Of a DNA stretch of 64,000 nucleotides, positions 40,751-57,546 are shown one piece after another. Numbering within the stretch: position 1 is the first letter of the stretch; every line of letters starts with the position of its first letter. The DNA comes from Desulfurivibrio dismutans (GTDB lineage Bacteria > Desulfobacterota > Desulfobulbia > Desulfobulbales > Desulfurivibrionaceae), in assembly GCF_029210385.1 (NCBI RefSeq), contig NZ_JARGDQ010000005.1, positions 62,001 through 126,000 on the forward strand, in the 5' to 3' direction. The notes under the pieces were generated by a model, which had not been told where the DNA came from, did no database searches, and worked only from the letters and a program-made list of their open reading frames with translations. The position numbers and the translations under genes are program-made.

Positions 40751-41449
40751 ATGCTGGTTTCATATTCCCATAATTTTCTTTTTGTGCATATCGCCAAGAC
40801 TGGGGGGACCAGCATCCGGGCCGCTTTGCGCCGTTATCGTTGGGGCGGCTGGTATACCATTCCCCTGTGGCTGGCTAGTCAGGCCGATCAGCTGACCCGG
40901 CCGCGGCACAAGCTGGGGCTGAAATTCCCCCGGCACGCCAAGGCTGTTGCCGCCCATGAGATGCTGCCCGCCCCGGTGTTCCGGAATCTGTTCAAGTTCA
41001 CCGTGGTGCGTAACCCCTGGGATTTGCAGGTGAGTTCCTTTTACCACATCCGGCGGGAAAAACCCCATGTGCTGGCGGGGGTAAAGACCTTCGAGGATTT
41101 TCTCAAGCTGAAATTCGATCCCCAGCGCCCCTATGACTACATGCTCGACGTCTCGGCCGAACTTCAGCATGAATACCTGATTGACCTGCGCGGCAACGTG
41201 ATTGTCGACTTCATCGGTCGCTATGAGCGCCTGCAGGAGGATTTCAACACCATCTGCCGTCGCATCGGCATTACGCCCTTTAACCTGCCGCACCTGCGGC
41301 AGGCCAAGGAGCGGCGGGATTATCGCAGCTATTACACCGACGAGTTGGCCGAACTGGTGGCGCAACATTACCGCCGGGATATTGAGATTCTGAACTACCA
41401 GTTTGAACCGTCGGCGGCGCCTCCTCCTTGGGCCGAGCCGCAAAGTTGA
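40751..41449 (+). CDS. Sulfotransferase family 2-like protein (1)
   Basis: 232 residues with the two PAPS-binding segments: VHIAKTGGTSIRAAL (5'-phosphosulfate loop) and FTVVRNPWDLQVSSFY (3'-phosphate Arg-Asn). C-terminal YYTDELAELVAQHYRRDIEILNYQF matches the closing helix shared by the other sulfotransferases in this region. It should transfer sulfate from PAPS to a sugar hydroxyl. The start ATG has an AT-rich leader without a clear SD. It is the first of seven sulfotransferases between here and 53362. Confidence 0.87.
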   Translation: MLVSYSHNFLFVHIAKTGGTSIRAALRRYRWGGWYTIPLWLASQADQLTRPRHKLGLKFPRHAKAVAAHEMLPAPVFRNLFKFTVVRNPWDLQVSSFYHIRREKPHVLAGVKTFEDFLKLKFDPQRPYDYMLDVSAELQHEYLIDLRGNVIVDFIGRYERLQEDFNTICRRIGITPFNLPHLRQAKERRDYRSYYTDELAELVAQHYRRDIEILNYQFEPSAAPPPWAEPQS

Positions 41450-42561
41450 GTCCGGTTTTGCCGAAAGTCGCAATTTTCATATCCTATTCCGGCGACGGCG
41501 GGGTGGAGAAGATGGTGGGCAATCTGGCCGCCGGTTTTCTGGCCGCCGGGGTGGCGGTGGATTTGATTCTGATTAAGGCCGGCGGCGGTCATTTGGCGGC
41601 TATTCCGCCCGGGGTGCGGATCATCAAGCTGAATGCCCGTACCTCGCTGTTCAGTTTGCCCTGGCTGATCCGTTATCTGCGGCGGGAACGGCCGATGGCG
41701 CTGCTGGCCGCCAAGGATCGGGCCGCCCGGGTGGCCCTGCTGGCCCGCCGGTTGGCCGGGGTTTCGACCCGGGTGGTGCTGCGGTTGGGCATGCACCTGA
41801 GCCAGTCACTGGCGGGTAAAACCCGATTGCAGAAGGCGCTGCGCTACTATCCGGTGCGCTGGTTGTACCCTTGGGCGGACGGCATTGTCTGTGTTTCTGA
41901 AGGGATGGCAGACGACCTGGCGGAAATCACCGGTCTGCCCCGTCGGCATTTGAAGGTGATCGCCAACCCCACGGTAACCCCGGAACTGCAGCGGTTGGCC
42001 GCCGAGGAGCCCGATGATGTATGGTTCAACGAGCCCGGTCCGCCAATGATCATTGCCGTCGGCCGGCTGACCCGCCAGAAGGGGTTTGATGTTTTGCTGC
42101 GGTCCTTCGCCCGTCTGCAGGAACAGCAGCCCAGCCGATTGTTGATCCTGGGAGAAGGGCGGGACCGGCGGCAGCTGGAGGAAGAGATCCGGCGGCTAGG
42201 GCTGTCCGGTCGGGTACAGATGCCGGGATTTGTCGATAACCCCTATGCCTACCTGGCCCGGGCCGACCTTTTTGTGCTCTCCTCCCGTTTTGAAGGTTCC
42301 CCCAACGCGCTTAAGGAGGCGCTGGCGCTGGGGACGCCGGTGGTGGCCACCGACTGTAAAAGCGGGCCGCACCAGATTCTGCAGGGTGGTAAATACGGAC
42401 CGCTGGTACCGGTGGATGATCCGGAGGCGCTGACACAGGCCATGGCGCGGGTGCTGGCGGCGCCGCCGGATCGCGCGCTGCTGCCCCAGGCGGTGGCCGC
42501 CTACACCGTGGAAGCCAGCAGTAGGGCTTATCTGGCTGAGATGGGAGTTATTGAATGTTGA
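41446..42561 (+). CDS. Family 4 glycosyltransferase (1)
   Basis: About 371 residues from TTG 41446. GT-B fold: N-terminal FISYSGDGGVEKMVGNLAAG, the mid-protein VGRLTRQKGFDVLLRSFARL and the nucleotide-sugar motif LFVLSSRFEGSPNALKEALA (EX7E). The end TDCKSGPHQILQGGKYGPLV is nearly the same in three other GT4 proteins of this window (45750, 47818, 55586), so they are paralogs. It overlaps the first sulfotransferase, and the sugar and acceptor are unknown. Role inferred: LPS or polysaccharide assembly. Confidence 0.9.
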   Translation: MSPVLPKVAIFISYSGDGGVEKMVGNLAAGFLAAGVAVDLILIKAGGGHLAAIPPGVRIIKLNARTSLFSLPWLIRYLRRERPMALLAAKDRAARVALLARRLAGVSTRVVLRLGMHLSQSLAGKTRLQKALRYYPVRWLYPWADGIVCVSEGMADDLAEITGLPRRHLKVIANPTVTPELQRLAAEEPDDVWFNEPGPPMIIAVGRLTRQKGFDVLLRSFARLQEQQPSRLLILGEGRDRRQLEEEIRRLGLSGRVQMPGFVDNPYAYLARADLFVLSSRFEGSPNALKEALALGTPVVATDCKSGPHQILQGGKYGPLVPVDDPEALTQAMARVLAAPPDRALLPQAVAAYTVEASSRAYLAEMGVIEC

Positions 42562-42587
42562 CAAATAATTGACTCATCTGCTCTAAT
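42558..42587 (+). promoter_or_regulatory. Candidate sigma-70-type promoter upstream of sulfotransferase 2
   Basis: A TTGACA box (42558-42563) and a TCTAAT box (42582-42587) are separated by 18 nt. It lies just before the sulfotransferase start at 42628, giving a short leader with a GGGAG SD. It is consistent with choosing TTG 42628 rather than ATG 42586, which would sit on the -10 box. Confidence 0.45.
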
Positions 42588-42627
42588 GGCCCGGCACCGC
42601 AAAAAATGTGACGGGAGCTTATCGCTT

Positions 42628-43353
42628 TTGATTATCAGCCATCGTAATCGCTTTATTTTTATCAAGACCCGCAAAACCGCCGGCAGCAGCCTGGAGATTG
42701 GCCTTTCCCGGGTATGCGGGCCGGAGGACCTGATTACTCCCTTAAGCGCTCAGCGGGGCGAGGAGGAGTTGCGGCGGCAAGAGGGTGGGGTGGGTCCCTG
42801 CAATTACCTCAAACGAATCCGGGAACATCGCGGCTTCAAGGAGTGGCGGCGGCTGTTGACCCGAGGCCAGCGGACCCAGTACGGCGAGCACAGCACCGCC
42901 CCAGAGATTCGTCGCTTGGTGGGCTCAGAGGTTTGGTCGAGCTATTATCGTTTCACCGTCGAGCGCAACCCTTGGGATCGGGCCCTGTCCCGTTACTGGT
43001 GGCAGAAACACCGCTGGGAAGAGAAGGGACGCCGCAACTTTCCCAGCCTGAGTGAATACCTGCAATGGCTGGAGCGTCACAAGCCCCATTGGCTCAGTAA
43101 CTGGGGTCACTATACCATCGACGGCGAAATCGCCGTGGACCGGGTGCTGCGTTATGAAAATCTGGCCGAAGAGTTGGAGCGGTTGCGCCTCGATCTGGGA
43201 GTTGACGGCGACATCAGCCTGCCGTCTCGGCGCGCCAAAGGTGGCATTCGCCAAAACCGACAACCCTACGCCGAGGTTTTGAGTCAGACCGACCTGGAGC
43301 TGATTGCGCGCCTGTGCTGGCGGGAGATCGAGGCTTTCGGTTATCAATTTTGA
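42628..43353 (+). CDS. Sulfotransferase family 2-like protein (2)
   Basis: About 241 residues from TTG 42628. The N-terminus IISHRNRFIFIKTRKTAGSS matches the start of the sulfotransferase at 50940 (MIISHRYRFIFVHCRKVAGSS), which supports this start over ATG 42586. The second PAPS motif is FTVERNPWDRALSRYWWQ. C-terminal IARLCWREIEAFGYQF is the shared closing helix. Role: PAPS-dependent sulfation of a saccharide, inferred. A dispersed repeat begins directly at its stop. Confidence 0.85.
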   Translation: MIISHRNRFIFIKTRKTAGSSLEIGLSRVCGPEDLITPLSAQRGEEELRRQEGGVGPCNYLKRIREHRGFKEWRRLLTRGQRTQYGEHSTAPEIRRLVGSEVWSSYYRFTVERNPWDRALSRYWWQKHRWEEKGRRNFPSLSEYLQWLERHKPHWLSNWGHYTIDGEIAVDRVLRYENLAEELERLRLDLGVDGDISLPSRRAKGGIRQNRQPYAEVLSQTDLELIARLCWREIEAFGYQF

Positions 43354-43453
43354 CAACCTTGCAAAACCCCGCCAGCCGCGTTGGCCGGTAATGCGATAAC
43401 AAAGATACAGAAAGCGCTCCCGGTTGGCGCCGCTGCTTTGCGGTGCAACAATT
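43354..43453 (+). repeat. Dispersed repeat (about 100 nt), copy 2
   Basis: It reads CAACCTTGCAAAACCCCGCC, then GGCCGGTAATGCGATAAC, and ends in GCGCCGCTGCTTTGCGGTGC, which can pair as a small hairpin. It starts directly at the sulfotransferase stop, as copy 1 starts at the kinase stop. It supplies the upstream in-frame extension of the next gene, so that extension is not real coding sequence. Confidence 0.8.
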
Positions 43454-43476
43454 TTAAAAGACTACTGCTTATTATT

Positions 43477-44337
43477 ATGCCCCCCCTGGTACGAAAACGC
43501 GGTCCGTTGCGCCGCCTGCTGCAGATCTGCCGCCGCCGCTGGCGCCGCTGGCGAGCCGATATTCACCTGATTTCCTACCCCAAGTGCGGTCGCACCTGGC
43601 TGGCTCTGCTGATCGGTAAGTCCCTGGCGCTGCACCACGGTCTTAAGGTCCACAACCCGTTGCGCCTGCGCGATTTTGCCAAACCATGGCGTAATATCCC
43701 GTACATCTTGCAGCACCATGATGGCGGGCCGGAATTTCTCCAACCCGAAGAACTGGGCACCGACAAATCGGCTTATGCCGGGCGCAAAGTGATCTTCATG
43801 ATCCGTGATCCGCGTGATGTGCTGGTCTCCTCATACTTTCAAAAGACCAAGCGCAATGCCAATTACCAGGGTACCATGGAAGAGTATGTACACGAACGCC
43901 GAGGTGGTATTGAATCAATCATCGAGTTCTACAACATTTGGGCCCGCAATCGGCAGGTGCCGGCAGATTTTCTCCTGATCAGCTACGAAGATCTGCATGC
44001 CGACCCCGCCGGTGAATTGCGGCGGGTGCTGGAGTTCATCGGTTACGGCGAGGTGAGCGAGGCCGTTGTCGAGGAAGCCGTGGAGTTCTGCCGTTTTGAC
44101 AACATGCGCCGGCTGGAAGCCGGCAACGCCTTCGGTACCAGCGCCCTGTCGGCCCGGGAAGCCGATGATGAAGAAAGCTACAAGACCCGCAAGGGCAAGG
44201 TCGGCGGTTATGGGGACTATCTTAATGGCGAGGGGCTGGCTTACGTGGAAAAGGTGATCGGTGAACGGTTGGATCCCTTTTATTGGCGTTATATTGGCCC
44301 GGGACCTGCTGGCAAACCTGTAAAGGAGGATCTGTGA
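43477..44337 (+). CDS. Sulfotransferase domain protein (Sulfotransfer_1 type)
   Basis: About 286 residues from ATG 43477. The 5'-phosphosulfate loop is HLISYPKCGRTWLALLIGKS, and the 3'-phosphate site is VIFMIRDPRDVLVSSYFQ. The late RKGKVGGYGDYL block is the RxGxxGdW-like motif of cytosolic-type sulfotransferases. This puts it in a different subfamily from the five short family 2-like ones. An Arg/Trp-rich N-terminus (RRRWRRWRADIH) may contact the membrane or acceptor. It is translationally coupled to waaL by a GTGA overlap. Confidence 0.88.
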   Translation: MPPLVRKRGPLRRLLQICRRRWRRWRADIHLISYPKCGRTWLALLIGKSLALHHGLKVHNPLRLRDFAKPWRNIPYILQHHDGGPEFLQPEELGTDKSAYAGRKVIFMIRDPRDVLVSSYFQKTKRNANYQGTMEEYVHERRGGIESIIEFYNIWARNRQVPADFLLISYEDLHADPAGELRRVLEFIGYGEVSEAVVEEAVEFCRFDNMRRLEAGNAFGTSALSAREADDEESYKTRKGKVGGYGDYLNGEGLAYVEKVIGERLDPFYWRYIGPGPAGKPVKEDL

Positions 44338-45749
44338 CCAGGACCTTACCACGCCTGCCGGCCTGGTTTGCCAGGCCGGAGGATAGCCTGCAATGTTGGG
44401 CTGTTGGATCGGTATATGCGATGGCTTTTTTCTCGCCGTTAAGCACCTCTCTGGGGCAATTGGCGCATGCTTTTGTGCTGGTTGTCGCCTTGGTTTTTTT
44501 TGCCCGCCACTGGCAGGTTCTGATCCGCTCACCACTGATCTGGCTGGCACTCTTTTTTATTATTTATGTTATCACCAGGGGCAGTATCGCGGCAATTTAT
44601 GAGCGCCCGGATTTAGCCGCTGAACAGTGGGATGGCGTCAGAACATGGCACAAAACCGCCATTGTGCCCATTATTTTGCTGGGTATGGGGCTGGCGGCGA
44701 CGGGTAATTGGACCCGTCATTCTTTGGGGGCGCTGTTTGCTTTGTTGGTCGCTGTTGGCTTGAACCTCCTGGTCAATTTTTCGCCGGATGAATTTCTGGC
44801 TGCTTTACAGGGGCCTACCCGCTTTGAATTTGATCTTGGTTTTCGGGTGTCGGCCATTACGTTGCCCACCGCAATTTTAGGAGTGCTGGTTTTATCACCA
44901 TACCTTTTGGCGCGTTTGGCTGAACAATCACGATTTCAAGGATGGGGCAGGCTGTGGCTCGTAATGCTGGGAGGATTGCTGAGCCTGGCAGCAATGGGCA
45001 TGGTTGCGGCGTTGCTGGCCACTAAAAGCCGTAATGGTTGGTTGACCCTTTTAGTAGCACTCGCCGTAATGGTGCCTTTGGCACTGTGGTACTATCGTGC
45101 ACAGTTGCTTTATTTCAATCGTGCGGCAATCACCAGTGTGCTGCTTTTGGTTATGCTGATTGGCGGATTGTTGTACTACAACTGGGAAGTTATTGAACAG
45201 CGCTGGCGGCCGGTTGCCGCTACCATTACCCAGGTTGTCGCACTTCCTTTCGGTGGAGATGTGGACAGTTTGAAAAGAGATTCAGTGGGGGTGCGGGTGG
45301 CCTACTGGGCTTTTGGTTGGGAGCGGTTTAAAGAGCGTCTCTGGTTTGGGTACGGAGCTGCCGACCAGCGTCACCTGACCGACGAGTACCCGATTCCCCA
45401 TCAACTGAAAAACCGTGGCGATACATATCACAATTCACATCTCGACATCCTGCTGAGATTTGGCTTGGCGGGATACATTCCGGTGTTGCTGGTTGTGGTA
45501 CTGGCGCTGCACGAGGCTCGTCGGAACCTGGTGCAAGGGGGAGCAGGTCGGGTTTTGGGCCTTTATGTTGTCGGGTTTACTGTGGCATTGGCCTTTTGGG
45601 CGATGAATGCGCAAATTATGCACCGTTTTGATGTGTCACAGTTGTACTCCATAATTATTGGTACCATGTGTGCCGGTCAGTTTGCCCGCCTTTTGTCCTC
45701 CGGGTCCGGGGCAAATGAAATAAATTACGTAAAAGGCCATCATTCATAA
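44334..45749 (+). CDS. O-antigen ligase / polymerase family (WaaL-like)
   Basis: 471 residues from GTG 44334 (AAAGGAGGA upstream), with about 10-12 hydrophobic helices. The diagnostic periplasmic loop holds GDTYHNSHLDILLRFGLAG (the WaaL/Wzy HNxxLx motif) after an extended polar segment from about residue 300. It would ligate O-antigen to the lipid A core at the outer face of the inner membrane. It sits inside the sulfotransferase/glycosyltransferase run, so the ligated glycan is probably the sulfated product. Confidence 0.85.
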   Translation: MTRTLPRLPAWFARPEDSLQCWAVGSVYAMAFFSPLSTSLGQLAHAFVLVVALVFFARHWQVLIRSPLIWLALFFIIYVITRGSIAAIYERPDLAAEQWDGVRTWHKTAIVPIILLGMGLAATGNWTRHSLGALFALLVAVGLNLLVNFSPDEFLAALQGPTRFEFDLGFRVSAITLPTAILGVLVLSPYLLARLAEQSRFQGWGRLWLVMLGGLLSLAAMGMVAALLATKSRNGWLTLLVALAVMVPLALWYYRAQLLYFNRAAITSVLLLVMLIGGLLYYNWEVIEQRWRPVAATITQVVALPFGGDVDSLKRDSVGVRVAYWAFGWERFKERLWFGYGAADQRHLTDEYPIPHQLKNRGDTYHNSHLDILLRFGLAGYIPVLLVVVLALHEARRNLVQGGAGRVLGLYVVGFTVALAFWAMNAQIMHRFDVSQLYSIIIGTMCAGQFARLLSSGSGANEINYVKGHHS

Positions 45750-46916
45750 ATGAGCAATTCGCAGCCTGAACAACCGCCGGATATCGTTTTATTCGGCATC
45801 TTCCGTTCCTGGGGTGGCACTTATCGTCGCCTGATGAACCAGATCCATGTCTGGTTGGCCATGGGTCTGCAGGTGGAACTGGTAACCTTCCGCGATGGGG
45901 AGATGTTTTATCCCGATGAAATGCCCGCGTCGGTGCGCCTGGTTCACCTGGACACCTCACACCGCCTGACCACCATTTTGGCCCTGTGGCGCTATCTACG
46001 TCGCCGTCAGCCGCGGGTGATTCTCTCGGTCAATCATATCAGCAACATGATTCTGGCCCGTACCGGCTACCTGCCGGGGGTAATAACCCGGCGTTACCTT
46101 AGTGTGCCAAACACCTTTGGGCAGTCGGAAAAGCGACTGGATTCACCCCGTAAGCGTGAGCAAAAATTTCGTGAAATTAGGGCGGCATATCCCAAGGCCG
46201 ATGGCGTGATTGCGGTTTCCGACGGCGTACGCGATGACCTGCGCGATAATATCGGCCTTACCGGGGTGCATATTGAACGGATATACAGCGGTTCGGTGGC
46301 GCCTGGCAACCTGGCCCGGGCCAAAGAGTCGGTGGATCATCCCTGGCTGGTGAAGAAAGAATTGCCGGTGGTACTTTCCGTGGGACGACTGGTGCCTCAA
46401 AAGGATTACCCCATGCTGTTGCGCGCCTTTGCCCTGGTGGTAAAGGAGCACCCGGCCCGGCTGCTGATACTGGGCAAAGGGCGGGAGCAGCCGGCCTTGG
46501 AGCGATTGGCGGTGGAACTGGGGATCAGCCAATGGGTAGACATGCCAGGGTTTGCCGGTAATCCATATGCCTATATGGCCCGGGCCGATGTCTTTGCCCT
46601 TTCATCCCGCTGGGAAGGTTTGGTAAACGTGGTCATGGAGGCGCTGGGGGTGGGTACGCCCATTGTCTCCACCGATTGTCCTAGCGGTCCAAGGGAGATC
46701 CTGGCCGGCGGGCGTTACGGCATTCTGGTGCCAATGCAGGATGAGCAGGCCATGGCCGAGGGGATTTTGCGGGTTTTACGTGGCGAAGCGCCCCGATTTG
46801 ACTACACTGAGGCGGTGCGTCCTTTCATGGCCGAGACCGCTGCCCGGGCCTACCTTGATTTTTTTGGTATCAAACCTCGGCGGGAGCCGGGTAATAACAG
46901 GCAAGCCTTAGCATGA
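45750..46916 (+). CDS. Family 4 glycosyltransferase (2)
   Basis: 388 residues, GT-B fold. VLSVGRLVPQKDYPMLLRAF, VFALSSRWEGLVNVVMEALG (EX7E) and STDCPSGPREILAGGRYGIL are the donor-binding region. The N-terminus (FGIFRSWGGTYRRLMNQIHV) matches the paralogs at 41446 and 47818. It follows waaL directly and overlaps the next sulfotransferase gene by 4 nt (ATGA), so sugar transfer and sulfation genes alternate in one transcript. Donor and acceptor unknown. Confidence 0.9.
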   Translation: MSNSQPEQPPDIVLFGIFRSWGGTYRRLMNQIHVWLAMGLQVELVTFRDGEMFYPDEMPASVRLVHLDTSHRLTTILALWRYLRRRQPRVILSVNHISNMILARTGYLPGVITRRYLSVPNTFGQSEKRLDSPRKREQKFREIRAAYPKADGVIAVSDGVRDDLRDNIGLTGVHIERIYSGSVAPGNLARAKESVDHPWLVKKELPVVLSVGRLVPQKDYPMLLRAFALVVKEHPARLLILGKGREQPALERLAVELGISQWVDMPGFAGNPYAYMARADVFALSSRWEGLVNVVMEALGVGTPIVSTDCPSGPREILAGGRYGILVPMQDEQAMAEGILRVLRGEAPRFDYTEAVRPFMAETAARAYLDFFGIKPRREPGNNRQALA

Positions 46917-47821
46917 GCCCATCTGCAACCTCTCCGGTAATCATCATCGGCATGCATCGCTCCGGTACCAGTCTGCTGACCCGGGTGCTGCAGCAGGCCG
47001 GTTTTTTCATGGGCCGCGGGACCAGCCGTAACGAAGAAGCGGCTTTTACCAATGCCATCAATGCCTGGCTGTTTCGTCAGGCCTCGGCCACCTGGGATTG
47101 CCCTGAATCCATGGACCTGCTGCTGGCCGACCAGGAGCTGCGGCCATGGTTGCGGGATTATATCGGCGGGATCATTCGTGGTCCTGCGGCTCTGCGCTTT
47201 CTTGGCCTCAAACGGGGCTTGCGGGGTGGTGGTTTGCCCGCTCAATGTACCCCCTGGGGCTGGAAAGACCCCCGTAACACTTTTACGTTGCCTCTGTGGC
47301 TGGAACTTTTTCCCGAAGCCCGGGTGCTGCATATTGTCCGTCATGGAGTTGATGTGGCCGCCAGCCTGCGCCGGCGGCGCCAGGAGGAATTTGCGGCGCG
47401 GGTCGCACGTTATCGAAGGCGACGCCGATGGACCTGGTTGAACCCCCTGGCCCCCAAACACCGAGGTTTCGGTCCCCAGGTGCGGTGCCGTACCTTGGAG
47501 GGTGGCTTTGAGCTCTGGCAGCTTTATGTGGAACGGGCGATGGAACACGTTCAATTTCTGGGGGGGCAAGCTCTTACCATAAAATATGAAGCACTGCTGA
47601 CCGATCCCTTGCCCAATCTGCGCCAAGCGTTGGATTTCTGCGGTTGTGTGATGGATGAAAGCAGTCTGCGGGCGGTTGCGGCTGGTTTTCGTTCCGAGCG
47701 GGTACATGCCTGGAGCCGGCTGGAAGAATTGCGCGAGTTTACCGTTGGTCACCAGCCGACGCTGGCCATGTATGGTTACCCGGCTTTGCGGGAGAGTCAA
47801 CTTGCCGAGGGAACAGCATGA
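46913..47821 (+). CDS. Sulfotransferase family protein (3)
   Basis: 302 residues. The PAPS 5' loop is VIIIGMHRSGTSLLTRVLQQ and the 3'-phosphate motif is RVLHIVRHGVDVAASLRRRR. The subfamily is that of Sulfotransfer_3-like proteins, distinct from the shorter ones. Both ends overlap neighbours (ATGA at each), between two GT4 genes. Role: sulfation of a glycan intermediate or glycolipid, inferred. Confidence 0.85.
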   Translation: MSPSATSPVIIIGMHRSGTSLLTRVLQQAGFFMGRGTSRNEEAAFTNAINAWLFRQASATWDCPESMDLLLADQELRPWLRDYIGGIIRGPAALRFLGLKRGLRGGGLPAQCTPWGWKDPRNTFTLPLWLELFPEARVLHIVRHGVDVAASLRRRRQEEFAARVARYRRRRRWTWLNPLAPKHRGFGPQVRCRTLEGGFELWQLYVERAMEHVQFLGGQALTIKYEALLTDPLPNLRQALDFCGCVMDESSLRAVAAGFRSERVHAWSRLEELREFTVGHQPTLAMYGYPALRESQLAEGTA

Positions 47822-48909
47822 GCCAGCCACCGGATCTTGCCATTTTTGCGCCGCTTAAGGCATGGGGGGGGATTGAACGTAAGATCATGATCCTGTGTCG
47901 GGAATTCCTGGCCCAGGGGGTGCGGCTACAGTTGATTCTGGCCCGGGGCGGGCAGGTGCCTTATCCCGATGAATTCCCCGCCGGGGTTGAGGTGGTAAGC
48001 CTCGACAACCGTGGCAAGCGGGACGGGGTGCTGAAAATGGCCCGCCATCTTCGCCATACCCGGCCGCGGGCTCTGCTGACCGCCAAAGATCATGCGGCCA
48101 AGGTGGCGCTGATCAGCCGTTACCTGAGTCGGGTGCAGGTGCCCATCTACGTTAAAATCACCAACACCCTCAGTGAAACGCTGCGGCGTCCATTCAAGCG
48201 TTATTCCGCCCGCTGGTTGTACAGCTATGCCGACAAACTGATTGCCGTCTCCAACGGGGTGCGCAGTGACCTGATTAACAACTTTGCCATTCCCCCCGAA
48301 CAGATTGAGGTGATCTACAATCCGACGGTGACGCCGGATATCGCCCTGCGCTGCCGGCAGCCGGTTGCACACCCCTGGCTTGCCGACGATGGCCCGCCGG
48401 TAATCATGGGACTCGGGCGGCTTACTCCCCAGAAGGATTTTGCCACGTTGCTGCGAGCTTTTGCCCGGTTGCGCCAACACCGGCCGTGCCGATTGATTAT
48501 CCTGGGGGAGGGACCGTTGCGGCCAGACCTGCATGCTACGGCGTGCGAGTTGGGGATCGAAGAAGACTTTGATCTGCCGGGCTACGTTCAGGATCCGATG
48601 CCCTGGCTGGCCCGGGCCGAACTTTTTGTCCTGTCCTCCCGCTACGAAGGACTGGCCAATGTGATCATCGAGGCGCTGGCGGCCGGCACGCCGGTGGTTT
48701 GCACCGATTGCCCCAGTGGTCCGGATGAAATTCTGTTGGGCGGCAGGCTGGGGCCCCTGGTACCCATCGGTGATGTGGATGCCATGAGCGAAGCCATGAA
48801 CGCGGTGTTGACCTCTCCGCCGCCGGCCGGTTTGTTGCAGGAGGGTTTGGAACGTTTTCGCAGCGATAAAGTAGCAACGCACTATTTGCGGACCATGGGG
48901 TTGCGATAG
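47818..48909 (+). CDS. Family 4 glycosyltransferase (3)
   Basis: 363 residues. GT-B with MGLGRLTPQKDFATLLRAFA, LFVLSSRYEGLANVIIEALA (EX7E) and TDCPSGPDEILLGGRLGPLV. N-terminal FAPLKAWGGIERKIMILCRE is shared with the other paralogs. It overlaps the sulfotransferase upstream and is followed after about 50 nt by the kinase-like gene. Its place between sulfotransferase 3 and two kinase genes suggests that it extends a core decorated by both groups. Sugar specificity unknown. Confidence 0.9.
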   Translation: MSQPPDLAIFAPLKAWGGIERKIMILCREFLAQGVRLQLILARGGQVPYPDEFPAGVEVVSLDNRGKRDGVLKMARHLRHTRPRALLTAKDHAAKVALISRYLSRVQVPIYVKITNTLSETLRRPFKRYSARWLYSYADKLIAVSNGVRSDLINNFAIPPEQIEVIYNPTVTPDIALRCRQPVAHPWLADDGPPVIMGLGRLTPQKDFATLLRAFARLRQHRPCRLIILGEGPLRPDLHATACELGIEEDFDLPGYVQDPMPWLARAELFVLSSRYEGLANVIIEALAAGTPVVCTDCPSGPDEILLGGRLGPLVPIGDVDAMSEAMNAVLTSPPPAGLLQEGLERFRSDKVATHYLRTMGLR

Positions 48910-50022: not shown

Positions 50023-50769
50023 ATGAAACGCCTTGAACTCATCGGCCCTCCCGGAGTGGGCAAGACGACCATCCTGGGAGCCCTGCAGCAGGCCCTGCGT
50101 CGACAGGGGTGTGCGGTGCTGCCCGCCCGCTGGGTGCCGTTGATGGTTAAGCTTAAAGAGCAGCAGGCCGGTCCGGGGCAGCGGTGGCTTGAATCCTGGC
50201 TCTACGGCCGCCGCGGGTTGCAGCGCTGGATGCGTCACAAATACGAAAAAGAGATGGTGCGCGGGGAGTACAAGCGTTTGCGGGAGGCTGCCTCACCCTG
50301 GCCGGAATTCCTTGCCCATGGTTTGGCCAACAGCGCCTCGGCCGACGAGAATCCGGCTTTGCGGCTTGAACGCATGCTTAGCTTTATTCGTCAGGCCGCT
50401 CTGGCCCATGCCGTGGATCGCCTGCCCGGCAGAGAAGTGGTTTTGTGCGATGAAGGCCTGGCCCAGCGGGGGATCAGTTTGGGGCAAGGGGCCGATCCGG
50501 CGCTTGTCCAGACTTATTTCCGGCTCATGCCGCTCCCGGCGATGGTGATTAAGGTTACCGCCCCCGACGAGCTTATTCATGCCCGGTTGACCCAGCGTAA
50601 CCAGGCGGTGCAGCGCTTTCACGCCATGGTGGAGCCAGCCCGGGCCATCAGTGAAGAGGGATGCCGTATTCTGGCCGAGCGGGGCGCTGTCGTGGCCGTG
50701 GTGAACACCGAGCAACCACCGGCCATGGCGGTGGCCGCGGCGGTCAGCTTGATTAAAGAGGATAAATGA
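50023..50769 (+). CDS. P-loop kinase/NTPase-like protein
   Basis: 248 residues, starting with a Walker A motif LIGPPGVGKTTILGALQQAL at residues 5-24. A Walker-B-like VVLCDEGLAQRGISLG lies near residue 140 and KVTAPDELIHARLTQR near residue 180, as in small nucleoside/sugar kinases. Without a recognised family I cannot name a substrate. It is close-coupled to the kinase-fold protein upstream. A dispersed repeat lies beyond its stop. Confidence 0.75.
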   Translation: MKRLELIGPPGVGKTTILGALQQALRRQGCAVLPARWVPLMVKLKEQQAGPGQRWLESWLYGRRGLQRWMRHKYEKEMVRGEYKRLREAASPWPEFLAHGLANSASADENPALRLERMLSFIRQAALAHAVDRLPGREVVLCDEGLAQRGISLGQGADPALVQTYFRLMPLPAMVIKVTAPDELIHARLTQRNQAVQRFHAMVEPARAISEEGCRILAERGAVVAVVNTEQPPAMAVAAAVSLIKEDK

Positions 50770-50782
50770 GGGCAGGGCAAAA

Positions 50783-50939: not shown

Positions 50940-51692
50940 TCACGGTTCAAAAGTATAATCAAAATAGCTGATTTCTTTGCCGTACAGCGCTCCCACCAGT
51001 TCCCGGTCGCCTGGTCCGTAGTAATCCCGCCATGGTTTCCGGTAGTTGCGTCGCTTTTCCGAGGCGGTCAGTCTGACCTCGGGAAGTCCGACCCGTTCCA
51101 TTGCTCTGGCAAAATCTTCCTGTAACTTCTCGTAACGGCCAATGAAATCCATCACCGGTTGATCGCCGATGGTGTACATGGGCCAGTTGTCATATTTGTC
51201 TCGGCCATGGACATCCCGTTTGGATTCACTCAAGTTGCGAATGTAGTTGCTGAATGAGGGCGCGTCGGCGCTCTCGCGGGTCAGGTAAAGATAGTCGGAA
51301 ACCGCCCGCTCGTAAGGGTTACGTACGAAACAGAACTTGAAATAGCTGTGCCATTCTTCCGGAAAAGCCCGCTGTATATCGGTGGCGGTGGGGTGCCCGG
51401 ATGAGGAGAGACCGAAGGCCTGTTTGTAGCGTCTCTTCACCGCCTTGTTTAATGAATCGCGCCAGCTCCGGCCCCGGAGCAGGCCCGAGGCCAGCTCCCG
51501 CAGACCGTGAGGCCGTACGGCCTCGCTCAGCGCCTGACGGTTAAAAAAACTGCGGTCGCGATAAAGTTCCTGGTAGCTTCCCAGAACGATATCGGTTGGA
51601 CCCAGGTGCGGGGCAATGCTTACTTTCATGGAACTGCCGGCCACCTTGCGGCAGTGGACAAAGATAAAACGGTAACGGTGGCTGATGATCAT
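50940..51692 (-). CDS. Sulfotransferase family 2-like protein (4)
   Basis: 250 residues from ATG 51692 (GAGGAAATT upstream). N-terminal IISHRYRFIFVHCRKVAGSS is the PAPS 5' loop, FCFVRNPYERAVSDYLYL the 3'-phosphate site and KEISYFDYTF the closing helix. It is the last gene of a three-gene minus-strand group of sulfotransferases and is close in sequence to the one at 42628. The shared start sequence supports the TTG start chosen for that paralog. Confidence 0.88.
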   Translation of the reverse strand: MIISHRYRFIFVHCRKVAGSSMKVSIAPHLGPTDIVLGSYQELYRDRSFFNRQALSEAVRPHGLRELASGLLRGRSWRDSLNKAVKRRYKQAFGLSSSGHPTATDIQRAFPEEWHSYFKFCFVRNPYERAVSDYLYLTRESADAPSFSNYIRNLSESKRDVHGRDKYDNWPMYTIGDQPVMDFIGRYEKLQEDFARAMERVGLPEVRLTASEKRRNYRKPWRDYYGPGDRELVGALYGKEISYFDYTFEP

Positions 51693-51743: not shown

Positions 51744-52505
51744 TCAGCGGAGGGCCGCTTCCGGGTCCGACGAATAACCAAAAGCGGCAAAGTCTTCGCG
51801 GTACAGGCTGCGCACCGCGTCGATTGCCGGGCCGTCATAATATCGGTGAAAATCATCCCCTGATTTGGTCTTGTGGTCGTCCCAGCTTTTCACCCCGTCG
51901 GCCATTTGACGACCGTAAACTCGTTGTACCACCTTGGCCAGATCGGTATCAATTTTTTCCAGGTGCCCGATGAAGTCCAAACGGGAACGGTCACGGGGCA
52001 ACAGGGCGACCTGTGGCGCCCAGTGTGGTCCTTCGTAAAGGGCCACACCTTTAATCTGCGCCAGGAAGTCAAGAAAGGTCAACGGCTGGCCATGTTCGTC
52101 GGTGGGGGAGGTCTTAAGGTTTTTGGTGGCCGGTTTGTTGCGGGTAATCTTGTCGAGGTAGGCTGAGAGCACGCGCCGGTATGGGTTGCGTACAAAGGTC
52201 AACTTGAAATATTCCCGCCAGGCAACCTGCGCCCGGCGGCGCCCCAACTCCCGGGGGTGGAGATAAGGGCCCGATTTGCTGCCGCTGATCTCTATTCCCT
52301 GACGCTCTTCTGCCGAAAGGTGCGGATCATAATGCACCAGGGTTTTGCCTACCGTGGAGTGGCCGGCTTTGGGAATCCGGTAAAAAACGAAGCGGTTGGC
52401 TTCGGAAACCAGAATCCGGCTGTTGACGCGGTGGCGCTGTACCCGGCCATCCAAAGAGTTCAATAGAGGATTGAAAAGCTCACTGAGCCGGCGCGACAGA
52501 TGCAT
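51744..52505 (-). CDS. Sulfotransferase family 2-like protein (5)
   Basis: 253 residues from ATG 52505 (AGGACA upstream). RFVFYRIPKAGHSTVGKTLV is the 5' loop and LTFVRNPYRRVLSAYLDKIT the 3'-phosphate site; YREDFAAFGY is the closing helix. An N-terminal extension of about 30 residues carries no recognised domain. The gene is followed after 51 nt by the next sulfotransferase. It would use PAPS on a saccharide acceptor; the specific position is unknown. Confidence 0.86.
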   Translation of the reverse strand: MHLSRRLSELFNPLLNSLDGRVQRHRVNSRILVSEANRFVFYRIPKAGHSTVGKTLVHYDPHLSAEERQGIEISGSKSGPYLHPRELGRRRAQVAWREYFKLTFVRNPYRRVLSAYLDKITRNKPATKNLKTSPTDEHGQPLTFLDFLAQIKGVALYEGPHWAPQVALLPRDRSRLDFIGHLEKIDTDLAKVVQRVYGRQMADGVKSWDDHKTKSGDDFHRYYDGPAIDAVRSLYREDFAAFGYSSDPEAALR

Positions 52506-52561: not shown

Positions 52562-53362
52562 TTATGGCAATTTTTCGGGATCATAATCGAAAAAGGCAAA
52601 ATCTTTGGCGTAGAGTTCAGCCACTCGCTGTTTTTCATACTTGCCATAAAGTTCGTGCAGGTGTTTGTTCGCCTGTGTGGCATGATGCTGGCGGGTAAAG
52701 ATCCTGGCTGAGCGCCCATAAACGATCCGGGTTAACCTCGGCAGATCTTCGGCCAGGTTTTCCATCTTGCCGATGAAGTTCAGTTCTTCCGGGGGCAGTG
52801 GGCAGATGTGGCTTTGGGGCATCCAGTGAATGTCGGCGTGGAGTCCGCCATCGTGCAAGTAATCACAAAAGCCGGCAAAAGAGAGATTTTTCGGTAGCCC
52901 CAGCCGCTGCGTCGTCGGCCCTTTGCGAATTTTGTACAAATAAGCTGAAGCCAGGCGGCTGTGTGGATTGCGTACGATAACCGCCTTGCAGTAGTTCTTG
53001 AGTACTTCCCGGGTGTCGTTACGGGACAAGCTGGAGGGACGCGTGAACAGTTTCATCATGTTTGGTTTGCGCAGCAGCAGCTTGCGTTCCCGGGGGTCCA
53101 TGGTTTCGATGACATCGGAAGACGTCCCGCTTTCACATAACCACAGGGTGGTGAGTATGGTGGTATTGGCACATTTGGGGATACGAACGAAAAGGAAACG
53201 ATGTTGGTGACTTATGGCGATACGGGCATCAATCGTCGGCACATCGGCACTTGCATGCACCGGGTGATCTGAGTGGTTCAGTCCGCAATGCCGATAGAAT
53301 GGCTTCCAGCTGTAGCGAAACGAACGTATATGTCTGGAAAGCTTCTGAATGGCGGTTTGCAC
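52562..53362 (-). CDS. Sulfotransferase family 2-like protein (6)
   Basis: 266 residues from GTG 53362, which has GGGAGG only 4 nt upstream. The 5' loop is RFLFVRIPKCANTTILTTLW (Cys-Ala replacing the usual Gly pair) and the 3'-phosphate site is KAVIVRNPHSRLASAYLYKI. YAKDFAFFDYDPEKLP is the closing part. It is the first gene of the minus-strand sulfotransferase trio. An AT-rich spacer of about 310 nt separates it from the divergent glycosyltransferase gene. Confidence 0.84.
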   Translation of the reverse strand: MQTAIQKLSRHIRSFRYSWKPFYRHCGLNHSDHPVHASADVPTIDARIAISHQHRFLFVRIPKCANTTILTTLWLCESGTSSDVIETMDPRERKLLLRKPNMMKLFTRPSSLSRNDTREVLKNYCKAVIVRNPHSRLASAYLYKIRKGPTTQRLGLPKNLSFAGFCDYLHDGGLHADIHWMPQSHICPLPPEELNFIGKMENLAEDLPRLTRIVYGRSARIFTRQHHATQANKHLHELYGKYEKQRVAELYAKDFAFFDYDPEKLP

Positions 53363-53672: not shown

Positions 53673-54737
53673 ATGAGGGTCCTGATATTGGTTGGTCGGT
53701 TTCATCCCAACCTTACAGAATGGGTTGCCGCGTTTCGTCAGGAAGGATGGAGTGTTTCTGTCATTGCCGGCGGTGGGGCCGTGAACAGGGTTCAGCGAGT
53801 AGAGCCGCGTATTATTCCCCCGAAGACAGTGAGCGAGACTCTGGCAAAGCAGATAGCCGAAGAGATTCAGCCTGACCTGGTTATCATCCGTAGCAAGAGT
53901 CATGAATTTCGACGTATTGTCAGGGCGGCCCGACGCCGAGGAGCATCCGCCATTTACTACGATCAGCGACCTTACCTTCGTCCTGCCGGCATCCGGGGAT
54001 TCTATCGGGAAGTACGATTGGCTTTTAAGCGGGCCAGGCTTGGCCATCCCCGCGTAGGCATTACCACCACCCGTGGCCAGGGAGATGTGCCACGTCTCTG
54101 GCGCCACTGGGTTCGAGTCCCCATGCCGGTTCCAGACAGGGTGACTGAGCGGCCATATTTTCGGGACGGAATCCCTACGGTGTTAATGGTGGGGCGACTG
54201 GCCAATAAAAAGAAGCGACATTTGTGGGTGCTTGATGCTCTGGAGTCTTTCGGCGGGCCATATCGGCTGCTGGTGGCTGGGGCCGGTGATGACAGTCACA
54301 CGACAACTCCCGGTAAAAGGAGTCGTGAATACTACGAGCAAGTGCGAAAAACCCTGAACGCCCCGCAGCACCAAGGCAAAGTGCAACTTTTGGAGGATAT
54401 TCCCCACGAGTCGATGCCGGAGCTTTATCAGCAGGCCGATATTTTCGTGTTACCATCAACCAAAGAGTTATTGGGGATTTCTATTGTTGAGGCGATGGCC
54501 CAAGGTTGTGCCGTGGTGGCTTCCAGTGGGGCCGGAGCCACAGGATATATGACTGATGGCAAGGATGGGCTGATTTTTGCAAGTAGTTCATACGGGGAGT
54601 TTCGGGATTCTTTGCGCAGGCTGTTGGCTGATGCCGATTATACTCGTTCTTTAGGGCAGAACGCTGCCACAACCATCCGCGAACATCACCGGCATGCAGA
54701 TTTTGTCGATCAAATCAAAAAAACCGCCGGCTTTTGA
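53673..54737 (+). CDS. Family 4 glycosyltransferase (4)
   Basis: 354 residues, GT-B: RVLILVGRFHPNLTEWVAAF at the N-terminus, LMVGRLANKKKRHLWVLDAL for donor binding and IFVLPSTKELLGISIVEAMA (EX7E). It is less like the other three paralogs and lacks the TDCPSGP block. Base composition looks lower in GC than the flanking genes, which may reflect transfer. GAGGAGG precedes the ATG. FkbM follows immediately. Acceptor and sugar unknown. Confidence 0.88.
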   Translation: MRVLILVGRFHPNLTEWVAAFRQEGWSVSVIAGGGAVNRVQRVEPRIIPPKTVSETLAKQIAEEIQPDLVIIRSKSHEFRRIVRAARRRGASAIYYDQRPYLRPAGIRGFYREVRLAFKRARLGHPRVGITTTRGQGDVPRLWRHWVRVPMPVPDRVTERPYFRDGIPTVLMVGRLANKKKRHLWVLDALESFGGPYRLLVAGAGDDSHTTTPGKRSREYYEQVRKTLNAPQHQGKVQLLEDIPHESMPELYQQADIFVLPSTKELLGISIVEAMAQGCAVVASSGAGATGYMTDGKDGLIFASSSYGEFRDSLRRLLADADYTRSLGQNAATTIREHHRHADFVDQIKKTAGF

Positions 54738-54760
54738 CCTATTTAGCGCAGGAGAGTTAT

Positions 54761-55525
54761 ATGGGAGATTTTCGATCATGGCTGTGCCGTACAGCTGAAA
54801 AAAAGGCCGCCAAGCTGGCCCGAAAATCAGCCTTGGAAGGATTGTTTGCGGGTTTGCTGGAGCAGTACTGTCGGTTGCACGAAGCCCATGGTGGCGCGAG
54901 GTTTCTCCAGATCGGGGCCAATGATGGTAAAACCAATGACCCCCTCTTTCCCTGCATCAAGAAGTTCAGGCTTGCAGGGATTTGCGTGGAGCCACTGCCG
55001 GAAGCCTTTGAGATACTGCGTGAAACGTACCGGGAACATTCGAACGTCGTCCTGGTGCAGCGGGCCATAGGATCCAGCGAGGAGATGATGAAGCTGTATG
55101 TGGCGGGTCTGCCTGAAAACGCAACGGTTGCGGAGCGTCTGGATGCTTCCCGGAAGGCGACATTCTCAAAGGAAAGTGCCATCGCCAAAACAAAAAAGGA
55201 ATGTGGACTGGGTAGTGATCAGGAAGTCGAGGCCAGGCTTGAGATTTGCCATGTAAAGACCACGACGTTGCCGGGCTTGCTGGCGGAATATGGCCATCCC
55301 AGGGTGGATATTCTGCAAATTGATGCCGAAGGCGAGGATTGGAATATTCTTCAGCAGGTGGCGGTATTGCCGGCGCTCCCATCCCTGGTGAATCTCGAGC
55401 ATAAAGGATTGAGCCAAAAAGCTCGGCATGAGATGCACACCTGGTTTGCCAGGGCCGGGTATTTGTGGTTTGAACATGGCCGGGATACCTGCGCTCTGCG
55501 GCCTGCTCTGGCCGGTATTTCTTGA
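54761..55525 (+). CDS. FkbM-family methyltransferase
   Basis: About 254 residues from ATG 54761 (GGAGAG upstream); the frame starts earlier at a TTG that overlaps the GT stop. ARFLQIGANDGKTNDPLF is the SAM-binding glycine motif, AGICVEPLPEAFEILRET the second strand, and PRVDILQIDAEGEDWNILQQ the typical FkbM motif. It methylates a hydroxyl of a sugar or polyketide; here a polysaccharide residue is likely. It lies between two GT4 genes. Confidence 0.9.
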   Translation: MGDFRSWLCRTAEKKAAKLARKSALEGLFAGLLEQYCRLHEAHGGARFLQIGANDGKTNDPLFPCIKKFRLAGICVEPLPEAFEILRETYREHSNVVLVQRAIGSSEEMMKLYVAGLPENATVAERLDASRKATFSKESAIAKTKKECGLGSDQEVEARLEICHVKTTTLPGLLAEYGHPRVDILQIDAEGEDWNILQQVAVLPALPSLVNLEHKGLSQKARHEMHTWFARAGYLWFEHGRDTCALRPALAGIS

Positions 55526-55585
55526 GGCGACGGCTATGGAACCAAATGTTGCCACAGCAGACACCACCCTCAAGGTAAGTCAACA

Positions 55586-56689
55586 ATGAGCCGGCATTTG
55601 GCATTGCTGTTTGCCACCTCTGGTCACAGCGGGGTTGACCGGGTGGTACAGAACCTGCTGCCGGAATTTGGTCGTACTCCTCACCGCTTTGACCTGCTGC
55701 TGATTCGGGGACATGGGCCCTACCTCGATACGGTGCCGGACAATATCAGGGTGATTCGGTTGCCGGTGGGCAGTAAAAAGACGGTGCTGCCGTGCCTGTT
55801 CTGGTACTTGTGGCGCCATCGGCCCGAGGCGATGCTGACCGCCAACCATGAACTCAACCGGGCCTTGCTGCTGGCGCGCAGGATTACCGGGGTGCCGACG
55901 CGGGTGGTGATCCGCATGGGGATGTCGGTGAGTGCCAAGGGCCGAGATTTGCAACCGGCACAACGCGATGCCCTGTTCGCCTCCATGCGACGCTGGTATC
56001 CCCTGGCGGATGCAGCCGTTACCCCGTCACAGGGGGTGGGTGATGATCTGGTGAAAATTGCCGGAGTGCAACCCGGACGTCTGTCGGTGATCCGTAACCC
56101 CATTGTTAATGAGCGCTTTTTCCAGCTTGCCGAGGAGCCGGTGGAGCATTCATGGTATGGCGATACCGATTGGCCGGTGATTCTGGGGGTTGGCTCGCTG
56201 GAGCCGCGTAAGGATTTTACCACCTTGATTAAGGCCTTTGCCGTGGTGCGGGCCGAGCGGCGCTGTCGGTTGATTATCCTTGGCAAAGGCCGACAAAGGT
56301 CCGACTTGCTGGCCTTGGCTGCGCAACTTGGCGTGGCAGAAGATGTAGATCTGCCCGGTTTTGATCCTAATCCGTATCGGCACATGCGTCGCGCCGGATT
56401 GTTTGTGCTGGCGTCGCAGAGAGAGGGGGCTTCCGCCGTGGTGGTGGAGGCACTGGCCTGTGGGACTCCCGTGGTGTCGACGGATTGCCCCAGCGGACCG
56501 GCTGAGACCCTGGCCAACGGGCGTTATGGCCGGTTGGTGCCGGTGGGGGATGTTGCAAAGATGGCTAAAGCGATTAATGCTACCCTGGATTATCCGCCCG
56601 ATCCTGATTATTTGCGACAGGCGGTTGTCGCCAATCGCACGGAAGTTGTTGCTCGTCGTTATCTCGCCGCTTTGGGTGTAAGTGATTAA
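55586..56689 (+). CDS. Family 4 glycosyltransferase (5)
   Basis: 367 residues, GT-B paralog of 41446 and 47818: N-terminal FATSGHSGVDRVVQNLLPEF, donor-binding LGVGSLEPRKDFTTLIKAFA and the EX7E-type LFVLASQREGASAVVVEALA, then TDCPSGPAETLANGRYGRLV. The start ATG has AAGG upstream. It ends the LPS glycosyltransferase run; an interval of about 250 nt separates it from cysC. No functional detail beyond glycosyl transfer can be given. Confidence 0.9.
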   Translation: MSRHLALLFATSGHSGVDRVVQNLLPEFGRTPHRFDLLLIRGHGPYLDTVPDNIRVIRLPVGSKKTVLPCLFWYLWRHRPEAMLTANHELNRALLLARRITGVPTRVVIRMGMSVSAKGRDLQPAQRDALFASMRRWYPLADAAVTPSQGVGDDLVKIAGVQPGRLSVIRNPIVNERFFQLAEEPVEHSWYGDTDWPVILGVGSLEPRKDFTTLIKAFAVVRAERRCRLIILGKGRQRSDLLALAAQLGVAEDVDLPGFDPNPYRHMRRAGLFVLASQREGASAVVVEALACGTPVVSTDCPSGPAETLANGRYGRLVPVGDVAKMAKAINATLDYPPDPDYLRQAVVANRTEVVARRYLAALGVSD

Positions 56690-56943
56690 AACACGACATC
56701 TTAAAGAGATCGGCGGCGTTTTTTTGGGGTGATAGCATGAGAGGTTGTCGCTGGTGACTGGCGGGGCGAAAACAATCTTCTGATTGACAATCTACCCGGA
56801 AGCAGCTAAGAATCGACGCGGCTTTTTGCAATGCCGACAATTTTGGGGCAAAATCTGCCAGACTCCTTTTTTGCTTTCCCCGTGAGCTCCCCATGCCCCG
56901 CCGGAGCGAGTCAAATTAAATAATTACACCCATTTTTGATTTT

Positions 56944-57546
56944 ATGAAAAGCCCCAACACCGTCCCCTATCGGGGAAAAATTAACAGTGAATTACGGCAA
57001 AAACTGCTTGGTCAGAAAAGTATGGTTATGTGGTTTACCGGCCTTTCCGGATCCGGCAAATCCACCATCGCCCATGCGGTGGAAGAAAAACTGTATGAGC
57101 TGGGCCGCCTGTCCTATGTGTTTGATGGTGATAATGTCCGTCATGGTCTGTGCAGCGATCTGAGCTTTTCCCCCGAGGGGAGGGCGGAGAACCTGCGCCG
57201 GATCTCGGAAATGGTCCGGCTCTTTCTCGATGCCGGAATTATCTGCCTGACAGCCTTTATTTCCCCCCTGCGGGCCGACCGCCAAAAGTGTCGAGAGTTG
57301 ATCGACTGCGGCCGTTTTTTCGAGGTTTATGTCAAGTGTTCCTTGGACGAATGTGAAAGGCGGGATGTCAAAGGCCTGTACAAAATGGCCCGGCAGGGTA
57401 AGATCAAGAATTACACTGGAATTTCGGCCCCTTATGAAGAGCCCCAGGAGCCGGATCTGGTGTTGGATACCTGTGAGCAATCGCTTGAAGAGTGCGTAGA
57501 TGCCACTGTTGACTTTATTATGGCCAAGATGCACGGCACCCGATGA
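56944..57546 (+). CDS. cysC: Adenylylsulfate (APS) kinase
   Basis: 200 residues. Walker A GLSGSGKST at residues 33-41, then FDGDNVRHGLCSDLSFSPEG, LTAFISPLRADR and ARQGKIKNYTGISAPYEEP, which are all CysC motifs. It phosphorylates APS to PAPS, the sulfate donor for the seven sulfotransferases nearby. No ATP sulfurylase (sat/cysND) is present in the window. The kinase-like gene at 57543 overlaps its stop by ATGA, so PAPS supply is tied to that gene's expression. Confidence 0.95.
   Translation: MKSPNTVPYRGKINSELRQKLLGQKSMVMWFTGLSGSGKSTIAHAVEEKLYELGRLSYVFDGDNVRHGLCSDLSFSPEGRAENLRRISEMVRLFLDAGIICLTAFISPLRADRQKCRELIDCGRFFEVYVKCSLDECERRDVKGLYKMARQGKIKNYTGISAPYEEPQEPDLVLDTCEQSLEECVDATVDFIMAKMHGTR

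Follow-up and report, generated by a model that had tools for sequence, protein, structure and literature searches.

A lipopolysaccharide-core locus with seven predicted sulfotransferases and its own APS kinase in Desulfurivibrio dismutans: a candidate system for core sulfation

Results

Seven sulfotransferase genes lie within an LPS-core locus

We analysed a stretch of 64,000 nucleotides, hereafter the window, from Desulfurivibrio dismutans (assembly GCF_029210385.1, contig NZ_JARGDQ010000005.1, positions 62,001 to 126,000). It carries a cluster of seven predicted sulfotransferase (ST) genes among genes of lipopolysaccharide (LPS) synthesis, together with cysC, the gene for adenosine 5'-phosphosulfate (APS) kinase, which produces the sulfate donor 3'-phosphoadenosine 5'-phosphosulfate (PAPS). 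The assembly (33 contigs, 2,838,417 bases) fits strain AMeS2, a haloalkaliphile from soda lakes of south-western Siberia with an optimum of pH 9.5–10 and 60% GC, as given in its genome report (PMC12142623). The sulfotransferases were designated ST1 to ST7 by their order along the window. They all lie inside 12.6 kb, flanked by heptose and 3-deoxy-D-manno-oct-2-ulosonic acid (Kdo) kinase genes on one side and by cysC on the other. Open reading frames (ORFs) of at least 150 amino acids (aa) between 36097 and 58931 that are likely genes were scanned with Pfam and NCBIfam, giving the following features (window coordinates, strand):

36097..37530, +, hldE, fused kinase/adenylyltransferase of ADP-heptose synthesis (NF008454, 716.1 bits; cut-off 521)
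37527..38132, +, gmhA, sedoheptulose-7-phosphate isomerase (SIS_2; TIGR00441, 194 bits, below the cut-off of 209)
38169..38723, +, gmhB, heptose bisphosphate phosphatase (TIGR00213, 185.8 bits; cut-off 149.6)
38702..39820, -, GT9 heptosyltransferase-like (PF01075, 173 bits)
39717..40520, +, kdkA, Kdo kinase (NF002475, 247.9 bits; cut-off 142)
40751..41449, +, ST1, Sulfotransfer_2 (PF03567, 51.9 bits)
41428..42561, +, GT4a glycosyltransferase (PF13692/PF00534)
42586..43353, +, ST2, Sulfotransfer_2 (PF03567, 28.3 bits)
43477..44337 (ORF start 43381), +, ST3, Sulfotransfer_1 (PF00685, 97.8 bits)
44283..45749, +, waaL-like O-antigen ligase (Wzy_C, PF04932, 63.8 bits)
45750..46916, +, GT4b glycosyltransferase (Pfam scan)
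46913..47821, +, ST4, Sulfotransfer_3 (PF13469, 78.5 bits)
47818..48909, +, GT4c glycosyltransferase (Pfam scan)
48961..50019, +, APH-like kinase (PF01636, 31.8 bits)
50023..50769, +, P-loop kinase with nucleoside monophosphate kinase-like fold (Walker A GPPGVGKT; AlphaFold, Foldseek)
50940..51692, -, ST5, Sulfotransfer_2 (PF03567, 46.9 bits)
51744..52505, -, ST6, Sulfotransfer_2 (PF03567, 76.2 bits)
52562..53362, -, ST7, Sulfotransfer_2 (PF03567, 100.9 bits)
53673..54737, +, GT4d glycosyltransferase (Pfam scan)
54734..55525, +, FkbM methyltransferase (PF05050, 47.9 bits)
55586..56689, +, GT4e glycosyltransferase (Pfam scan)
56944..57546, +, cysC, APS kinase of PAPS synthesis (NF003013, 263.9 bits; cut-off 163)
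57543..58931, +, kin2, kinase-like, probable LPS kinase (no Pfam or NCBIfam family at E<=0.01)

The genes expected of an LPS-core (waa) locus occur together here, namely those for heptose synthesis, a heptosyltransferase, a Kdo kinase and a ligase; hldE, gmhB and kdkA pass their NCBIfam cut-offs, GT9 and Wzy_C pass those of Pfam, and gmhA misses its NCBIfam cut-offs. Thus, the layout of heptose and kdkA genes, GT4 genes and ligase reads as an LPS-core locus. No flippase, polysaccharide ABC exporter or nucleotide-sugar enzyme was found among the scanned ORFs.

All seven ST genes exceed the curated Pfam cut-offs (22 bits for PF03567 and PF00685, 27 bits for PF13469), with five in PF03567 and one in each of the other two families, which bears out the seven sulfotransferases in an LPS region proposed by the initial annotation. 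Five of its gene starts were recovered as given. The ST2 frame begins at 42586, so that the proposed start at 42628 lies 14 codons in, and ST3 may begin at 43381 or at the proposed internal ATG at 43477. The five interleaved GT4 genes, the WaaL-like ligase, FkbM and the kinases that it had listed were likewise found, at 41428–55586. The kinase-like gene at 57543 and the P-loop kinase-like gene at 50023 are further members of the cluster.

The product of kin2 carries invariant VAKFY and DLNWLN motifs in four aligned rows, which we take to be kinase motifs; its structure model (predicted local distance difference test, pLDDT, 60.8) was unusable. For the protein encoded at 50023, the best AlphaFold model reached a pLDDT of 81.6 and the remaining four 45–68. 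Foldseek matched it to adenylate and thymidylate kinases (best E 2.3e-6), and the idea of an eighth sulfotransferase or second APS kinase was dropped on account of this fold match, although only one of the five models is confident. PADLOC gave no credible defence match for the five cluster proteins submitted, with weak matches for the 50023 protein only.

The sulfotransferases retain their PAPS motifs and are under purifying selection

When the three Pfam models were run against the entire genome, precisely these seven genes scored above cut-off; the sole additional match, on contig C31, falls short (25.3 versus 27 bits). The Stf0 model matched none of the seven at E<=0.01, the remaining genome not having been searched for Stf0. 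Each ST was aligned with selected relatives, giving 35 rows in seven groups. Every row that covers the positions retains the basic residue of the 5' motif, which is K or, in ST4, R, as well as the R and S of the 3' motif; one row breaks off at its 5' motif because the contig ends there. K16, R87 and S95 are invariant in the five Sulfotransfer_2 paralogs. We assume that the conserved K/R and the R and S form the 5'-phosphosulfate and 3'-phosphate motifs, respectively. The initial annotation had named non-conserved PAPS sites as an argument against sulfation; since the motifs persist in every covering row, that argument falls away. In PDB searches, ST3 found distant relatives among cytosolic sulfotransferases, ST1 gave weak matches only and ST7 none.

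Between AMeS2 and Desulfurivibrio alkaliphilus AHT2 (genome of 3,097,763 bases; PMC5016858), the ratio of nonsynonymous to synonymous substitutions (dN/dS) is 0.059–0.147 for the seven ST genes, 0.041 for cysC and 0.108–0.238 for five upstream LPS genes; these values were calculated by the Nei-Gojobori method with Jukes-Cantor correction and are rough, as some dS values exceed 1. The ST genes are under purifying selection between the two strains, and ST1–ST7 are predicted to be PAPS-dependent sulfotransferases.

PAPS supply

The initial annotation had cast cysC as the source of PAPS, and the gene appears to be the only full-length APS kinase gene in the genome. A search of 27 family genomes for APS kinase returned one full-length CysC for AMeS2, that of the cluster; a second match is a 44-residue part of a 456-aa frame outside the window and passes the cut-off only with its neighbours. 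PF01583 matches occur in 23 of the 27 genomes, some as full-length genes and many as short matches only. PAPS reductase (PF01507) gave no match in the AMeS2 genome, while all 14 control genomes were positive. With no PAPS reductase found, PAPS has no known assimilatory use, so it should go to sulfation alone. AprAB and Sat, which handle APS in sulfur disproportionation, are among the most expressed proteins of AMeS2 according to its genome report (PMC12142623), and the cluster CysC may draw on this APS of energy metabolism.

The set is shared within Desulfurivibrio and rare in the order

The comparison with other Desulfobulbales suggested by the initial annotation showed that the full set is shared by AHT2 and a shorter one by a further Desulfurivibrio genome. 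In AHT2, all seven ST genes, cysC, kin2 and the LPS genes stand in the AMeS2 order, and the STs are 72–91% identical. No counterpart of GT4d or fkbM was found in the AHT2 stretches examined. The waaL product is 38% identical, versus 91% and 86% for those of its neighbours ST3 and GT4b, so the ligase gene has apparently been replaced; its GC is 0.52. AHT2 also has an extra PF03567 gene ~119 kb from the cluster (G186:C1:1178712-1179362; locus L034, ~8700-9390).

A fragmented metagenome-assembled genome (MAG) of Desulfurivibrio, G188, carries ST1, ST2, ST3, ST4, cysC and kin2 on two contigs in an altered order. Its cysC-kin2 segment (L055:544-2528) matches that of AMeS2 (56944-58931) at 98–99.6% in the proteins and 96.6% over 2.5 kb of DNA, versus 70–77% for the other cluster stretches longer than 130 bases that match its contigs (one stretch of 86 bases reaches 83%), which indicates that Desulfurivibrio species exchanged this block recently. 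A gene upstream of the cluster is 87% identical between the two.

Within the order, 39 of 257 genomes carry any PF03567 gene, and AMeS2 and AHT2 are the only ones with a cluster of five. The density of sulfation genes, which the initial annotation had called unusual, is thus rare among Desulfobulbales, but the set recurs in the Thioalkalivibrio family (see below). In a sample of the phylum, 46 of 395 genomes had a PF03567 gene, with at least five only in AMeS2 and AHT2. PF03567 is absent from all 22 family genomes of other genera. Three further genomes of the order carry five (G064, across three contigs), four (G127) and three (G019) PF03567 genes. Their examined stretches, which cover these regions in part, match the AMeS2 STs and GT4s weakly and gave no match to hldE, gmhA, gmhB, kdkA, waaL or GT9; they were therefore taken as other glycan clusters.

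In AMeS2 and AHT2, the two domains of HldE are fused into one protein. In 21 of the 22 family genomes of other genera its matches are split into kinase and adenylyltransferase, and the last genome has the second part only. The fused HldE may have arrived together with the locus. A recoded stop in HldE, considered because 1–2 stops interrupt the kinase match in the 21 genomes, was rejected, as in the 11 of these genomes that were examined the stop is the normal end of a separate kinase gene.

Counterparts of the set occur in Gammaproteobacteria

Named genomes were scanned with the ST1 alignment, which yielded at least 79 loci at 53–79% identity. Among the matches listed, the nearest relatives of ST1 are those of a Halorhodospira MAG, Thioalkalivibrio ALJ7 and Alkalilimnicola ehrlichii. 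ALJ7, a gammaproteobacterium, has counterparts of ST1 to ST7 (76, 70, 68, 69, 53, 61 and 31% identical, respectively) inside 13.3 kb, in a locus that also holds gmhB, gmhA, MsbA, LpxL, GT9, waaL, KdkA, kin2 and hldE; MsbA and KdkA score above cut-off and LpxL slightly below. The set is placed between gmhAB/msbA/lpxL on one side and kdkA/hldE on the other. A 548-aa frame that suggested an ST2-ST3 fusion in Thioalkalivibrio was dropped, since the two genes lie in different frames and the long frame is an upstream extension of ST3.

In the Thioalkalivibrio family, PF03567 occurs in 25 of 47 genomes, with five in one cluster in three of them (ALJ7, G694 and G715); the latter two also have counterparts of all seven STs in one locus with GT9, waaL, kdkA and hldE. 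Two others, G697 and G688, carry six-ST variants, which by similarity to the AMeS2 proteins consist of ST1, ST3, ST4 and three full-length ST2-like genes; PF03567 finds three genes in each, one of them below cut-off. Two extra ST2-like genes (59% and 37–38% identical to ST2) flank waaL in these loci (L152 and L154), which have no ST5–ST7. They thus combine a shared backbone with another set of multiple STs. G708 has three STs (ST1, ST2-like and ST4-like).

The Halorhodospira MAG carries ST1, ST2, ST3, ST4 and ST7 over three contigs. Cock Soda Lake was sampled by a sediment study whose data sets bear the prefix CSSed (PMC6146748), and the same prefix in the isolate name suggests a soda-lake origin for this MAG. 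Alkalilimnicola ehrlichii holds ST1 twice in a single LPS locus (L139:12602-13291 and L139:18351-19004), with 58% and 72% identity to the AMeS2 protein; kdkA is matched there in two pieces and WaaA as a fragment of 161 aa.

ST1 is widespread and often linked to LPS-core genes

Among the matches listed, 43 of the 79 ST1 loci have at least one core gene (GT9, hldE, waaL, gmhA, gmhB or kdkA) in the DNA examined, and a GT4 gene lies immediately upstream of ST1 in 33. Seven hidden Markov models (HMMs) built here count one ST in 71 of these loci and two to four in the other eight; this is an undercount, since it relies on these models and the flanks are often short. At least one PF13469 gene of the Alkalilimnicola locus (G638:C66:146466) escaped the models, and ALJ7 scores four STs because the locus taken stops before ST2–ST4.

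A quick-method tree of ST1 with 82 rows places AMeS2 and AHT2 in a group with Halorhodospira and Thioalkalivibrio (Shimodaira-Hasegawa-like approximate likelihood ratio test, SH-aLRT, 98), and the Desulfurivibrio MAG with Alkalilimnicola (83) and a Desulfohalobiaceae MAG (92). Together with the absence of PF03567 from the 22 family genomes of other genera, this points to horizontal transfer of the ST set; the quick tree by itself is no proof.

Discussion

Our data suggest that the LPS core of Desulfurivibrio is sulfated in the cytoplasm by seven site-specific enzymes and that the set has spread horizontally among soda-lake bacteria, a reading based on gene content and comparison to which we assign a probability of roughly 0.78. 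In this model, an LPS-core (waa-type) locus would have been turned into a core-sulfation line. APS from sulfur catabolism (AprAB/Sat) would be converted to PAPS by the cluster CysC, GT4 enzymes would lengthen the lipid A-linked heptose/Kdo core on the cytoplasmic side of the inner membrane, and each of the seven STs would sulfate one hydroxyl of one particular core sugar. WaaL would then ligate whichever polymer the cell produces. The resulting core would bear as many as seven sulfate esters in addition to the phosphates added by KdkA and the other kinases, and the set would be exchanged between soda-lake bacteria. What we infer in this model is that the LPS core is the acceptor and that each enzyme serves a single site, together with the sulfate count and the origin of the APS. 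The heavily sulfated LPS proposed by the initial annotation thus stands as a genomic prediction, favoured by the single full-length cysC, by the lack of a detected PAPS reductase and by the recurrence of the set in LPS loci of another phylum, and the cells probably carry a multiply sulfated surface.

Core assembly on lipid A occurs at the cytoplasmic face, which is where PAPS is available. The GT4a, b, c and e proteins are 37–42% identical to each other's AHT2 copies and look like copies of one transferase adding successive sugars; they may be core transferases, and the STs may act on successive core residues. Given that the STs belong to three families, it is unlikely that all seven act on a single site.

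Several observations weigh against this model. Two other genomes of the genus, one 77% complete (G187) and one listed as 100% complete (G189), match neither PF03567 nor hldE. CysC is also present in family genomes without STs and is therefore not specific to genomes with sulfation genes, and the ST7 counterpart in the Thioalkalivibrio family is just 28–31% identical. Among the matches listed, 36 of the 79 ST1 loci have no core gene in the DNA examined, and in the one neighbourhood each from Thiocapsa and Alteromonas (four genes each, Pfam) the Pfam-matched neighbours are not LPS genes; the linkage of ST1 to LPS is thus common but not general. Moreover, the sugars are unreadable from the cluster because it lacks nucleotide-sugar genes, and lipid A, an O-antigen unit or a small molecule could be the acceptor of some STs.

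A Wzy_C domain may belong to a polymerase as well as to a ligase, and the STs might modify a capsule or exopolysaccharide whose genes merely sit beside those of LPS, as in the sulfated capsule of a marine Vibrio. One bacterial gene cluster for a sulfated glycan, which has STs and cysNDC, is known to build a capsule (PMC11641403), and a sulfated capsule is reported for Cobetia (PMC11766843). We nevertheless consider this improbable, because the scanned ORFs include none of the export or nucleotide-sugar functions named above and because the Thioalkalivibrio set is flanked by gmhAB/msbA/lpxL and kdkA/hldE. It is also unlikely, if slightly less so, that the STs target not the core but lipid A or the O-antigen repeat. 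The msbA and lpxL genes in the ALJ7 locus and the presence of waaL in the cluster would suit such targets, but no O-unit assembly genes were found among the scanned cluster ORFs, and the divergence of waaL (as seen in AHT2) is not shared by the conserved STs, which hence do not track the polymer handled by waaL.

About equally unlikely, in our view, is a variable anti-phage decoration in which gain and loss of STs alter a phage receptor. The unmatched GT4d-fkbM pair and the swapped waaL, the changed order and recently exchanged block in the Desulfurivibrio MAG, and the other ST sets of G697 and G688 are what such variation would produce. However, AMeS2, AHT2 and three Thioalkalivibrio-family genomes retain all seven STs, which between AMeS2 and AHT2 are under purifying selection, the variable parts there being waaL and GT4d-fkbM. 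Core sulfation may have a role in the habitat. Free Mg2+ and Ca2+ are very low in soda lakes, so sulfate esters may supply a stable negative surface. Expression of the LPS sulfotransferase of Sinorhizobium meliloti drops with divalent cations (PMC12445080, citing another paper), which by analogy is consistent with such a role and is not proof of it. We tentatively propose, as a possibility that we rate below even odds, that soda-lake Gram-negatives of at least two phyla share a horizontally transferred polysulfation of the LPS core, in which seven site-specific STs with glycosyltransferases and kinases would create a dense, pH-independent negative charge. This would serve at high Na+, pH 10 and near-zero free Mg2+ and Ca2+, where divalent bridging of LPS phosphates would fail, with the donor coming from energy-metabolism APS in Desulfurivibrio.

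LPS sulfation is already known from LpsS of S. meliloti, and the candidate multi-enzyme core system would be the new part. LpsS likewise sulfates LPS in a PAPS-dependent manner (PMC12445080; PAPS as donor, PMC6192434), but it is a single enzyme annotated as Stf0 family (PMC12445080), whereas the cluster described here has seven STs of three Pfam families and its own APS kinase in a core locus. The capsule cluster of the marine Vibrio sp. KMM 8419 similarly places ST and PAPS-synthesis genes beside glycosyltransferases, yet it includes nucleotide-sugar genes and an ABC exporter (PMC11641403), neither of which was found among the scanned ORFs of the Desulfurivibrio locus with its heptose, Kdo-kinase and ligase genes. 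Halobacterium salinarum uses two distinct sulfotransferases on the sugars of a single short glycan, although this is an archaeal protein N-glycan and not LPS (PMC11980604). Gammaproteobacterial waa loci with kdkA group hldE, gmhA, gmhB, heptosyltransferase, kdkA, GT4s and waaL in the same way, but most ST1 loci show one ST in the above undercount, compared with seven here.

If the model is true, LPS sulfation in soda-lake bacteria would be an entire pathway within the core locus, beyond a one-enzyme trait, and the question of what keeps an outer membrane tight at pH 10, in molar sodium and with scarce divalent cations would become testable. The cluster would also be a source of bacterial carbohydrate sulfotransferases that likely differ in site preference on one short glycan, and ST1 would be marked as a widespread sulfotransferase family often found in LPS-core loci. 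The wider significance comes from the ST set being common to different phyla.

In the open-access literature, to which subscription journals are largely external so that absence from print is unproven, we found no multi-enzyme LPS-core sulfation system and no co-mention of Thioalkalivibrio, sulfotransferase and lipopolysaccharide. The words sulfotransferase and lipopolysaccharide are absent from the main texts of the AHT2 (PMC5016858) and AMeS2 (PMC12142623) genome papers, and the best 15 of 392 literature matches on the LPS core in haloalkaliphiles contain nothing on LPS sulfation. "Sulfated lipopolysaccharide" together with sulfotransferase led to S. meliloti and M. loti only. A review of the marine sulfur cycle mentions both Desulfurivibrio and sulfotransferase (PMC8359478).

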